From NCBI RefSeq assembly GCF_001424025.1, contig NZ_LMPZ01000002.1:666714-730713 (forward strand): DNA of 64,000 bases. The letters run 5' to 3'. A model generated the notes under the pieces. The model saw only the letters and a list, made by a program, of their open reading frames with translations. It had not been told where the DNA came from and did not search any database. Below, piece by piece: positions 46,339 to 49,436 of this stretch (the stretch's first letter is position 1; each line of letters begins with the position of its first letter). Source of the stretch: Brevundimonas sp. Leaf363 (GTDB taxonomy: Bacteria > Pseudomonadota > Alphaproteobacteria > Caulobacterales > Caulobacteraceae). Both the position numbers and the translations under genes were made by a program.

Positions 46339-46405
46339 CGCATCCGCCGCTCTGGCGGCCGCGTAGCTGAAGCCGATGCGACGGACCCTCATGCCCGGCG
46401 CGTCC

Positions 46406-46443
46406 GCGGGGAGGCCACCCAGCCCTTCCAACGGCCTCCCCGC
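46406..46443 (+). terminator. Hairpin after the anti-sigma gene
   Basis: A perfect 11-bp inverted repeat GCGGGGAGGCC / GGCCTCCCCGC encloses a 16-base loop. There is no downstream T-run, so it may act as a transcript-end or stability element. It separates the sigma operon from the phage-derived module. Confidence 0.5.
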
Positions 46444-46589
46444 ACTCGCCTTGCGCGCGCACGATCTGCGCTGGTGTCTGAGGCTGAGCCGTTAACCCTC
46501 TGAAATCGCCACTCTAGCCGCTGCGATCGGGCCGCTTCGCTGCCTGGGGTCGGACCATCGCGACACTGGTCTCCAACATGGAGATCGAC

Positions 46590-48044
46590 ATGAGCGACGA
46601 CGCCAGCGCCCGCCTGGGCCTGACCTATCTGGCCCCCGGCCAGCTTCAGAAGCACGTCACCCTGAACGAGACGCTGACGCGGCTCGACGCCCTGGTTCAG
46701 ACCTGCGTCGTCAGCCGCTCGGTGCAGGCCCAGCCAGCCTCCCCGCCCGACGGCGCCCTCTATATCCTGCCGCAGGACGCGGCGGGCTCGGCCTGGTCGG
46801 ATCGGCAGGTCGGCGCGCTGATGCGGTTCGAGGCGGGCGCCTGGACGGTCGTGCCGACGGCGGACGGGCTGATCGTCCTCGTCGCCGACGAGGGCGTGGT
46901 GCTGGTTCGCAGCGCGGGCGACTGGGGGCCGCTGGGCGCCCGGCTGGGCGAGACGCAATCGCTGGCTCGCCTCGGCGTCGGCACCGAGGCGGACGCGGCC
47001 AACCCCTTCGCGGCCAAGCTCAACAAGGCCCTCTGGACGGCGCTGACCACGGGCGAGGGCGGCGACGGCGATCTGCGCCTGACGCTCAACAAGGCGTCGC
47101 AAGCCGACGTTCTGTCCCTGCTGTTCCAGTCCGACTACAGCGGCCGGGCCGAGCTGGGCTTGGTGGGCTCGGACGATCTGACCCTGAAGGTCAGCCCGGA
47201 CGGCGGCGCCTGGATCGAGGCGCTCAGCGTCGATCGCTCGACCGGCCGCGTCACGGCGCCGATGGGCGCGGGCAGGGTCCAGACGTCACTGATCACGACG
47301 GGCGGCCCCTTCACCGTTCCGGCATGGGCGCGCTGGATCCGCGCCGTCTGCGTGGGCGGCGGCGGGGGAGGCGGCGCCGGCGCGGCGGGCGCCACAGGCA
47401 CGGCGCGGCTGGGCGGGGCGGGCGGTGGAGCGGGCGGCCTCAGCACCGCGCTATGGAACGCCTCCGATATCGGCTCCGTACTGACCCTGAGCATTGGCGC
47501 GGGCGGGGCGGCGGGCGCCTCGGGCGGCGCCACCTCCATCAGCGATGCGACCGGGCCGCTGCTCGGCGCCGGCGGCGGCGCGGGCGGTCCGGCGGCGAGC
47601 GCGAGCGGCGCGACCGGCGGCGCCGGCTCGATCACCGGTCGCGGCGGCGGCGGCTCCAGCACATCGGCCACGGGCGGCGCCGGCTCAAGCGGCGGCGTGC
47701 AAGGGCCGGGCGCGGGCGGTGCGGGCGGCGGCGTCGACACAACCAATACCCAGAGGACCGGCGGCGCCGGCGGTTCGGCCGCCGCCCTGACGGCAATCGT
47801 CAGCGGCGGCGCGGGCGGCTCGGGCACGGCCGGCGGTATGGGCTCCGCACCCGGTCGCACAGCCCTCAGCTTGGGCGGCGGCGGCGGAGGAGGGGGCGGC
47901 GGCAACGCCTCGGGCGCGGGCCGCAGCGGCGGCGCGGGCGGCCTTCCAGGCGCGGGCGGCGGCGGGGGCGGCGCGGGGACGACCAGCGCCGGGGCCGGAG
48001 GCGTGGGCGGCGCGGGCTGCGTCATCCTGATCGTGGGGGGCTGA
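46590..48044 (+). CDS. DUF2793 tail-fibre-like protein with glycine-rich C-terminus
   Basis: Phage- or GTA-type structural protein of 484 residues. The first 110 residues match the DUF2793 pattern: LGLTYLAPGQLQKHVTLNETLTRLDALVQ, PPDGALYILPQDAAGSAWSDRQVGALMRFEAGAWTVVP (in part). A linker and short beta region lead to a glycine/alanine-rich tail from about residue 255 (many GGAGG and GGGGG runs) ending in GCVILIVGG, typical of phage tail-fibre tips. The ATG at 46590 has GGAGA five bases upstream; an ATG at 46578 is also possible. The following small genes form a lysis set in the same direction. Confidence 0.8.
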   Translation: MSDDASARLGLTYLAPGQLQKHVTLNETLTRLDALVQTCVVSRSVQAQPASPPDGALYILPQDAAGSAWSDRQVGALMRFEAGAWTVVPTADGLIVLVADEGVVLVRSAGDWGPLGARLGETQSLARLGVGTEADAANPFAAKLNKALWTALTTGEGGDGDLRLTLNKASQADVLSLLFQSDYSGRAELGLVGSDDLTLKVSPDGGAWIEALSVDRSTGRVTAPMGAGRVQTSLITTGGPFTVPAWARWIRAVCVGGGGGGGAGAAGATGTARLGGAGGGAGGLSTALWNASDIGSVLTLSIGAGGAAGASGGATSISDATGPLLGAGGGAGGPAASASGATGGAGSITGRGGGGSSTSATGGAGSSGGVQGPGAGGAGGGVDTTNTQRTGGAGGSAAALTAIVSGGAGGSGTAGGMGSAPGRTALSLGGGGGGGGGGNASGAGRSGGAGGLPGAGGGGGGAGTTSAGAGGVGGAGCVILIVGG

Positions 48045-48047
48045 GCG

Positions 48048-48194
48048 ATGCGCACCCGCGATGAAATCGATCTGCTGGATCCCGACGTCTTCGACAACCC
48101 CGACCATCTCGACCGCGAAGAAGGGGAGGCGGCGCTGGGCCTCGACTGGCGTCGCAGTGACGCCCGCCTCGGTCTGGAGGACGCCGATGACTGA
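48048..48194 (+). CDS. Small acidic protein in the lysis module, 48 aa
   Basis: A 48-codon frame starts 3 bases after the tail-fibre gene stop and overlaps the next start by 8 bp. The product is strongly acidic (MRTRDEIDLLDPDVFDNPDHLDREEGEAALGLDW...), with no membrane segment. I know no family. Its tight packing between two phage-type genes supports its being real. Confidence 0.5.
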   Translation: MRTRDEIDLLDPDVFDNPDHLDREEGEAALGLDWRRSDARLGLEDADD

Positions 48195-48447
48195 TCCCAT
48201 CCCTACGCTGGCGGAGGGACGCTGGCTCTGGCGTCGCCTCTACGTCTTTGCGGGCAGCGCCGCGGCGTGGACCCTGCTGGCGCTCAGCCTGCGCCGCATG
48301 GATGCGGTCCAGGCGGCGGCGACGGCGCGGGGCCTGATGGCCCTGCTGGCGCTGACGCTGGTGCTCTATCTGGTGGCGCCCACGGCCCAGCAACTGATCG
48401 CCCTGCTGGCCAATCTGCGCCTGCGGCTGGCGGGAGGCGGGCGATGA
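48187..48447 (+). CDS. Holin-like small membrane protein, 86 aa
   Basis: The product has two predicted membrane helices (about residues 18-37 and 48-74) with a short charged loop and a basic C-terminus (RLRLAGGGR). This size and topology fit a class II or III holin, which would release the endolysin or trigger the spanins. The assignment rests on topology and on the next gene being an endolysin, with which it overlaps by ATGA. The ATG at 48187 is used; earlier in-frame starts lie in the neighbouring gene. Confidence 0.6.
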   Translation: MTDPIPTLAEGRWLWRRLYVFAGSAAAWTLLALSLRRMDAVQAAATARGLMALLALTLVLYLVAPTAQQLIALLANLRLRLAGGGR

Positions 48448-48827
48448 GTTTCCGCCTGTCCGCCCGCTCTCGCGCCCGGATGACGGGCGTCCATCCCGAC
48501 CTGATCCGCGTCGTCGAGGCCGCGATCGCCGCCTCGCCGGTGGATTTCATGGTGACCGAAGGTCTGCGCTCGACCGCGCGACAGGCCGCTCTGGTCAAGG
48601 CCGGGGCCAGCCGGACGCTGAAGTCGCGCCACCTGACCGGCCACGCCGTCGATGTCGCGGCCCTGGTCGACGGCGCGATCCGCTGGGACTGGCCGCTGTA
48701 TGGACGCATCGCCCAGGCCTTCAAGGCCGAGGCGGCGCGCCTGGGCGTGCCCATCGTCTGGGGCGGCGACTGGACCTCCCTGCGCGACGGCCCGCATTTC
48801 GAACTCGATCGCAGGGCCTATCCATGA
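48444..48827 (+). CDS. M15-family endolysin (L-Ala-D-Glu / D-Ala peptidase type)
   Basis: Peptidoglycan-cutting zinc peptidase of 127 residues, the normal size for M15C phage endolysins. Zinc ligands are visible as H63 and D70 in SRHLTGHAVDVAA and H118 in DGPHFEL, with the conserved GLRSTARQAALVKAGAS before and WGGDW after. No signal peptide, so it needs a holin; a holin-like gene overlaps its start. It is followed by the spanin pair with another ATGA overlap. Confidence 0.87.
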   Translation: MSFRLSARSRARMTGVHPDLIRVVEAAIAASPVDFMVTEGLRSTARQAALVKAGASRTLKSRHLTGHAVDVAALVDGAIRWDWPLYGRIAQAFKAEAARLGVPIVWGGDWTSLRDGPHFELDRRAYP

Positions 48828-49249
48828 GCCCGCGCGAGCTGTTGCGGCTGCTCGCGCCGGCGGGCTGGCTGCTGGTCGTGGCCGTCGCCCTGGCGGCGGG
48901 GGTCGTGATCCTTGGATCCCTCGGCTGGCGCTGGGACCCGTTCGAACGGTCGGCCCGGCGCGCGGACAGGGCCGAAGCCCGCGCCGAGGCCGCCGAGAGC
49001 CAAGCCGTCGCGCGCGCACTGGAGGTCGAGGGCGAGGTCGCCCTGCGCCGGTCGTCCGCCACGCGCGCCGCCGCCGCCTCGGCCGCCCATGCGGCCACCG
49101 CCGTCACCCTGAATGAAGCAAGGATCGCCGATGACGCCTCTACGCCGCTGGACCCTGTGCGGGCTGACCGCCTGCGCCGCCATGATGACGAGCTGTGCCG
49201 CCTCGCCCCCGATCTCGAGGGCTGCGCCGCCGCGCCTGACGCTGGATGA
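48824..49249 (+). CDS. Rz-like inner-membrane spanin
   Basis: 141-residue protein with an N-terminal membrane helix (LLAPAGWLLVVAVALAAGVVILGSL, about residues 9-33) and a long Ala/Glu/Arg-rich coiled coil (RSARRADRAEARAEAAESQAVARALEVEGEVALRR in part). The C-terminal LDPVRADRLRRHDDELCRLAPDLEG resembles the end of phage Rz-type spanins (LxxxxxDRLR pattern). It overlaps the endolysin by ATGA, and the Rz1-like gene begins inside it in another frame. This order is the classic phage endolysin-Rz/Rz1 arrangement. Confidence 0.75.
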   Translation: MSPRELLRLLAPAGWLLVVAVALAAGVVILGSLGWRWDPFERSARRADRAEARAEAAESQAVARALEVEGEVALRRSSATRAAAASAAHAATAVTLNEARIADDASTPLDPVRADRLRRHDDELCRLAPDLEGCAAAPDAG

Positions 49250-49436
49250 GGCCGCGACACGGCCCTGCCGTCTGCCGCGCCTGGCCGAGCCGGCGACCAC
49301 GGGCGCACTGGAAGCCGCCTATGTCGAACGCGGCGCGGCCATCCTGGCCTGCGACCAGTCCCGCGCCGCCGCCGTCGAGGCGCTGAAGGCCGAGCGGGCG
49401 CTGATCGACCGCTGGCTGGCCGGCGCGGCGCCCTGA
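49131..49436 (+). CDS. Rz1-like outer-membrane spanin lipoprotein, nested start in Rz
   Basis: 101-residue product starting at an ATG inside the Rz-like gene in a different frame, with AGGA seven bases upstream; the overlap is 119 bp. It has a basic then hydrophobic leader with a lipobox (GLTAC, Cys15, or TSC at Cys22) followed by a proline-rich stretch SPPISRAAPPR, then a short helical tail. These are the defining traits of Rz1 spanins. The longer ATG at 49113 lacks a ribosome site. It is somewhat longer than classical Rz1. Confidence 0.68.
   Translation: MTPLRRWTLCGLTACAAMMTSCAASPPISRAAPPRLTLDEAATRPCRLPRLAEPATTGALEAAYVERGAAILACDQSRAAAVEALKAERALIDRWLAGAAP

Follow-up and report, generated by a model that had tools for sequence, protein, structure and literature searches.

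A tail-fibre and lysis operon of Brevundimonas as a candidate late operon of a gene transfer agent

The fibre-lysis locus and its products

In the present study, we analysed 64,000 nucleotides (nt) of Brevundimonas sp. Leaf363 (contig NZ_LMPZ01000002.1, positions 666,714 to 730,713; hereafter, the window), in which six genes, all on the plus strand between positions 46590 and 49436, encode a DUF2793 tail-fibre protein, a 48-amino acid (aa) protein, a holin-like protein, an M15 endolysin, and an Rz/Rz1 spanin pair (Table 1). This locus probably belongs to a gene transfer agent (GTA), a domesticated virus particle that carries bacterial DNA from cell to cell. The six-gene module had been described in an original prediction made from the letters of the window, and open reading frames (ORFs), protein families, and synteny in relatives agree that it is real; since synteny is kept in relatives, a chance origin of the array is excluded. 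Labels beginning with G, C, and L denote our genomes, contigs, and loci.

The genes are tightly packed. A 3-nt gap separates the stop codon of the fibre gene (48044) from the ATG of the 48-aa gene (48048), the latter overlaps the holin gene by 8 nt, the holin and endolysin genes and the endolysin and Rz genes overlap by 4 nt each, and Rz1 starts inside Rz. Because the genes abut or overlap and no terminator-like site was found on the plus strand between 46300 and 49750, the fibre and lysis genes probably share one transcript, as had been proposed. The fibre start at 46590 was favoured over 46578 because GGAG lies directly 5' of it and most aligned relatives begin there, and the holin and endolysin starts at 48187 and 48444 are internal starts picked by conservation.

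Table 1. Features of the fibre-lysis operon (positions in the window)
Feature	Position	Strand	Basis
Upstream/promoter region of the operon	46400..46589	+	-35-like GCTGCCTGGGGT, 17-nt spacer, -10-like element; alignment of 36 orthologous upstreams
DUF2793 and glycine-rich GTA-type tail-fibre protein	46590..48044	+	Pfam DUF2793; tail PHROGs among matches; co-occurrence with GTA_TIM
Acidic 48-aa microprotein	48048..48194	+	Motif LLDxxxWDxPxxLT in relatives; overlaps holin start
Holin-like 86-aa protein	48187..48447	+	Assigned from position and size
M15 L-alanyl-D-glutamate-type endopeptidase (endolysin)	48444..48827	+	Pfam; PHROG; ligands H63/D70/H118; PDB relatives
Rz-like inner-membrane spanin	48824..49249	+	phrog_214; single N-terminal transmembrane-like segment, residues 5-37
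Rz1-like outer-membrane lipoprotein spanin	49131..49436	+	phrog_456; starts within Rz; further ATG at 49113

The first product matched Pfam DUF2793 (E = 1.9e-21), which is named as a GTA tail-fibre family in a previous report (PMC10883770), and tail PHROGs were among its matches in a PHROG profile search; its glycine-rich C-terminus matched Gly_rich_2 at 0.00065, below the cut-off of that family. Regarding the endolysin, matches were obtained to Peptidase_M15_4 (5.3e-12) and to phrog_465, an endolysin family (8.4e-59), and the nearest solved structures in the PDB were those of ChiX (4.1e-42) and other L-Ala-D-Glu peptidases. The predicted integrity of its zinc site was borne out, in that H63, D70, and H118, which we take to be the ligands, were invariant in 13/13 aligned endolysins.

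Rz and Rz1 matched their PHROGs weakly (5.7e-05 and 6e-06, respectively). Rz has a single transmembrane (TM)-like segment, and relatives of Rz1 carry a conserved Cys behind a hydrophobic start, judged by eye to be a lipoprotein signal, and a Pro-rich sequence; the pair has the form of overlapping i-spanin (TM) and o-spanin (lipoprotein) genes. In some loci with holin and endolysin genes, such as L047 and L053 (G285 and G058), tblastn gave no match to Rz/Rz1. The holin-like protein had no convincing Pfam or PHROG family match, and of the two helices originally ascribed to it, a hydrophobic segment at residues 43-75 stood above the threshold and a weaker earlier segment fell below it.

The 48-aa protein had no Pfam or PHROG match. 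Pattern filters identified relatives of it at 27/38 loci with a holin (20 at first and 7 more later), and 13 were aligned; an acidic microprotein of approximately 50 aa with the motif in Table 1, overlapping the holin start, is conserved in many loci. It could tune the timing of the holin or link the fibre to lysis. Median dN/dS ratios (omega) estimated by NG86, which is rough at this divergence, were 0.24 for the endolysin, 0.41 for the N-terminal part of the fibre, 0.48 for the holin, and 0.56 for both Rz and Rz1.

The GTA cluster and its promoter likeness to the fibre-lysis operon

A genome-wide search for GTA structural genes had been set beforehand as a test that could refute the prediction; this refutation failed because a head-tail cluster of the type of the Rhodobacter capsulatus GTA (RcGTA) was found on contig 4, not on the fibre-lysis contig. 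This cluster comprises the portal, prohead protease, capsid, adaptor, tail tube, a tape-measure fragment, DUF2460, gp13, NlpC, and GTA_TIM/Rcc01698_C, with the large terminase (Terminase_6N/6C) upstream; approximately 24 kb beyond the terminase lie gafY (DnaA-C type; PF08299, 1.6e-07) and then gafZ (DUF6456, PF20057; G000:C4:315178-315576). The presence of this cluster and of gafYZ, together with the co-occurrence and promoter likeness described below, supports the proposal that the window holds the detached fibre and lysis locus of a GTA.

Several other features of this genome were observed. A 329-aa ORF with no Pfam match lies between the terminase and portal of the GTA cluster (L098, 2314-3303). 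A second terminase-like ORF (a 684-aa open frame; C3:31514-32911) aligns as three pieces with inserts between them, and split matches resembling it occur in other Brevundimonas. In addition, a second, more distant M15 endolysin was found at C2:916264-916677 (L054), approximately 48 kb from an integrase match (C2:964196), in a region that is perhaps a prophage.

To compare promoters, fibre upstreams were aligned from 36 out of 38 loci, the other two, of a small-genome clade, giving no match; the 13 GTA promoters were those of the loci in which a terminase was found among 21 (20 and L098 of the genome itself), and the orthologous promoters in either group are not independent. In the aligned GTA-cluster upstreams, CGCGCCTGAGGA forms a common block, accompanied by a GGACGCTGGTCC-like and a -10-like element. 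In many of the 36 genomes, the same -35-like block is positioned approximately 54-60 nt 5' of the fibre start, and a position weight matrix (PWM) built from the 13 GTA promoters scored at least 7 in 16/36 fibre upstreams and in 5.8% of 5000 random windows.

For a box resembling the consensus of integration host factor (IHF), the best match fell at precisely 34 nt above the block in 8/13 GTA and 17/36 fibre promoters when up to three mismatches were accepted, and in 5/13 and 11/36, respectively, with up to two. The next box upstream was more similar within than between genomes (9.6 versus 7.6 of 14 positions, p = 5e-5) in 12 of the 13 genomes, the remaining one lacking an anchor, when the first anchor was taken where there were two; a variant run on 12 genomes with the last anchor gave 9.9 versus 7.7 (p = 2e-4). 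In the IHF and upstream-box tests, the fibre anchor assumes a 17-nt spacing, and it differs from the assumption-free block in a few loci. The same comparison of the IHF region itself gave p = 0.060. The within-genome likeness of the upstream boxes is the pattern that would be expected from a shared, co-evolving activator site, and in C. crescentus the IHF site is flanked by the GafY site on one side and by the core GTA promoter on the other (PMC11150451). Since a common promoter architecture is found in the fibre-lysis operon and the GTA cluster in many genomes, the co-regulation of the operon with the head-tail cluster is suggested.

By eye, the GGACGCTGGTCC-like element could be recognised in the promoters of the GTA clusters but not in those of the fibre genes, which fits GafZ acting at the GTA promoters only. 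The CtrA control known from RcGTA was considered and rejected: a full CtrA-like site (up to one mismatch) occurred in 0/36 fibre upstreams and a TTAA half-site in 6/36. The GTA block was not seen in gafY promoters, and a search for a common GafY k-mer yielded no clear consensus. The gafY promoters of Brevundimonas (L150, L154, L169, L176, and others) share a conserved TAGGA-N6-TCCT-like palindrome; it resembles the RogA repeat published for C. crescentus, GGAA-N4-TTCC, without matching it exactly.

Distribution of the module and its relation to GTA integrity

The comparison set was an even draw of 299 Caulobacteraceae genomes, 73 of which were Brevundimonas. GTA_TIM was found in 144 and DUF2793 in 161 of the 299, with both in 141, TIM only in 3, the fibre only in 20, and neither in 135. 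Endolysin matches were present in 81/299 genomes; at 60% identity or more, they were confined to 65/73 Brevundimonas and one genome of another genus (G007). Among the matches listed, the fibre was located within 4 kb of the endolysin in at least 51 of these 65 Brevundimonas, according to a recount from manually entered coordinates. Five more had no listed fibre position: G249 and G267 gave no DUF2793 match, the fibre of G216 adjoins the endolysin (L033), and the others were G135 and G297. In 30 endolysin loci, including that of the window, a fibre was found in 25 and a flagellin in 29. The gene order that was to be sought in other Caulobacteraceae is retained at the same locus in most of the Brevundimonas examined. 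Named records with the endolysin, among the best 80 of 165, included B. diminuta, B. vesicularis, B. subvibrioides (metagenome-assembled genomes), B. bacteroides, and B. lenta.

In eight fibre loci of other genera, one of which (L096) stops at a contig edge just past the fibre, the lysis proteins of the window gave no tblastn match; no lysis genes were recognised among the ORFs of these loci by eye, without a family search. The activator gene gafZ was present in 73/73 Brevundimonas, in one case as a fragment at a contig end.

By manual tabulation, the large terminase was absent beside the portal in 19/73 Brevundimonas in which other GTA genes stay, two of these cases being partial (L107, L108, and L117 are examples), so that decay of the head-tail cluster seems to be under way in many lineages. 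Judged from the terminase, capsid, and TIM domain, by a manual tabulation in which artefacts of contig breaks are possible, the cluster was damaged in 27/73 Brevundimonas. In 26 of these genomes, a match to TIM, capsid, or portal was retained, G143 matched none of TIM, capsid, portal, and DUF2460, and module decay was looked for and not seen. Across 12 genomes, the distances of the holin and the endolysin follow those of the GTA terminase (Mantel r = 0.62 and 0.60, respectively).

A number of observations weigh against a GTA function for the locus. Regarding the fibre, DUF2793 proteins also occur in 50 phage records, and fibre distances do not follow those of the terminase (r = 0.16, p = 0.24; 11 genomes). 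Linkage of the fibre to the endolysin was not seen in 14/65 genomes by the recount; the two genes are on different contigs in eight, which leaves linkage unproven, and 84 kb apart in G258, and in a small-genome clade (G083, G174, and G210) divergent lysis genes lie beside DUF4112 with the fibre elsewhere. Of the 27 genomes with a damaged cluster, 23 kept the endolysin, as did 42/46 genomes whose cluster was full (Fisher p = 0.46), and, therefore, it does not track the GTA within Brevundimonas; the four full-cluster genomes without it at 60% identity or more were G092, G201, G279, and G288. Among the module genes, the substitution ratios indicate clear purifying selection for the endolysin alone. 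At the promoter, the copy of the block in the window is weak and is not its best PWM match, the IHF-like box is likewise weak and was not found at the usual offset, and six off-register controls of the within-genome comparison gave p values of 0.016, 0.058, 0.070, 0.22, 0.40, and 0.99. The persistence of the endolysin in damaged genomes reflects either recent losses of head-tail genes or another use for the module.

Interpretation and comparison with known systems

Considering the gene content, the operon layout, the GTA cluster with gafYZ, the occurrence throughout the genus, the promoter architecture shared in many genomes, and the lack of a LypB match (see below), all of which are read from the genomes themselves, we regard the locus as the late operon of a Brevundimonas GTA that provides recipient binding and canonical lysis, with a probability of roughly 0.7. 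We infer that GafY, with IHF, would act at the fibre-lysis promoter and switch on the operon together with the head-tail cluster. The DUF2793 fibre would join the particle and bind the recipient, the holin would open the inner membrane, the M15 endopeptidase would cleave the stem peptides of peptidoglycan, and Rz/Rz1 would fuse the inner and outer membranes, such that the cell would be lysed by these proteins and particles freed in the manner of classical phage-type lysis.

As an alternative, the operon may be a cassette for programmed lysis or for a type 10 secretion system (T10SS)-like release, which now frees a non-GTA cargo from a subpopulation of cells, with the fibre as a possible candidate and the GTA link being historical. 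T10SS cassettes of the ChiWXYZ type likewise consist of a holin, an M15 endopeptidase, and i- and o-spanins, and ChiX, the nearest solved relative of the endolysin, is presumably a member of such a cassette; moreover, the module, the fibre, and gafZ are retained in genomes with a damaged head-tail cluster. In contrast to these cassettes, the Brevundimonas operon has no gene for a chitinase, another secreted enzyme, or other cargo, and its first gene encodes a GTA-type fibre behind a promoter with the architecture of the GTA cluster, which makes this explanation unlikely. We give slightly less credence to a semi-autonomous module, in which the fibre-lysis operon and the Gaf activators have outlived the particle and, where head-tail genes have decayed, GafY-triggered lysis or T10SS-like release would free the fibre and DNA without a capsid as a public good. 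If this were true, the module would be an intermediate on the way from a GTA to a system for secretion or altruistic lysis.

A prophage remnant, or genes captured from a prophage, with no present role is quite improbable. The endolysin has many phage relatives (1308 of 50,697 records), and a prophage of Brevundimonas terrae, P2-like by gene reading, has a homologous cassette in the same holin-endolysin-Rz-Rz1 order (L049), with an endolysin 70% identical. Genes for a phage head, adaptor, baseplate, and tail surround this cassette, and neither a DUF2793 fibre nor the 48-aa protein was detected in its 6-kb locus; its position between head and tail genes implies that the lysis genes may come from, or exchange with, such phages. 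Against a remnant stand the conservation of the locus and its order in most of the Brevundimonas examined, the intact reading frames and low omega of the endolysin, and the promoter shared with the GTA. The surroundings in the window also provide little for it. The flanks, originally described as an extracytoplasmic function (ECF) sigma operon and flagellins, consist of DUF4112, an ECF sigma factor, and an RskA-type anti-sigma factor on the left and flagellins on the right. The claim that nothing else in the 64 kb is phage-like was upheld for tRNA genes (0 in the window), for Phage_integrase matches (none in the window and three elsewhere in the genome), and for seven scanned flanking proteins, none of which was phage-like, a coverage that stops short of every ORF; the same scans revealed no adjacent integrase or structural phage genes, attachment (att) repeats not having been searched. 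An isolated prophage remnant was, thus, disfavoured by synteny, the shared promoter, and the lack of an integrase match in the window.

Least probable of all is that only the fibre derives from a GTA and the lysis genes serve a different particle, a tailocin or prophage, through an accidentally shared transcript, since, even though the fibre is found apart from the lysis genes in some lineages and the distances of the two behave differently, the only promoter-like region upstream of the operon resembles the GTA promoter, and no tailocin was seen, albeit none was searched for.

Returning to the late operon of a GTA, the literature consulted, which consisted mostly of titles and abstract openings with subscription journals mostly outside its reach, contained no description of this fibre-lysis locus, and, on this evidence, the union of fibre, lysis, and spanin genes in a single GTA operon is a variant that was not previously described. 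If the reading is true, recipient binding and donor death are tied into one operon. For the exit of GTAs from cells outside Rhodobacterales, the locus offers a concrete candidate in most Brevundimonas.

RcGTA has its fibre at rcc00171 and its lysis genes at rcc00555/rcc00556, and shares with Brevundimonas a DUF2793-type fibre and endolysin and holin genes outside the head-tail cluster as well as a Gaf activator (PMC9638019, PMC3423380, PMC10883770). In RcGTA, the fibre and the lysis genes occupy different loci that carry putative CtrA half-sites, whereas in Brevundimonas they mostly form one operon without a full CtrA-like site, which is further distinguished by its M15 peptidase and Rz/Rz1.

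The GTA of Caulobacter crescentus (CcGTA) has in common with that of Brevundimonas the GTA cluster, split gafY-gafZ, and the IHF element of the GTA promoter (PMC9632790, PMC11150451); it is described with a fibre homologue, CCNA_02456, GafYZ/IHF control, and lysis by LypABC, and a DUF2793 match was also obtained in our C. vibrioides control genome. Canonical holin-endolysin genes are reported not to have been found in C. crescentus, in which lysis needs LypABC (PMC9632790, PMC13236601), and, among 11 Caulobacter species with predicted GTAs, complete lypABC is reported in only four (PMC13236601). In G130 and G077, we found an operon that agrees with LypABC in its domains, as reported, and in its size of 6.9 kb. 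With LypB of G130, an NLR-like ATPase, as the query, 8/299 genomes matched, four at 62-100% identity, two at 37-38% (G047 and G104), and two marginally, and most GTA-bearing genomes of other genera show neither a LypB of this type nor a close relative of the endolysin in the window. In contrast to CcGTA, Brevundimonas has the holin-endolysin-spanin module and, with two candidates scored per genome, none of its 73 genomes matched LypB. This suggests that lysis modules have been replaced within one bacterial family, and the operon may show how Brevundimonas releases GTA particles in a manner that differs from that of its relative Caulobacter.

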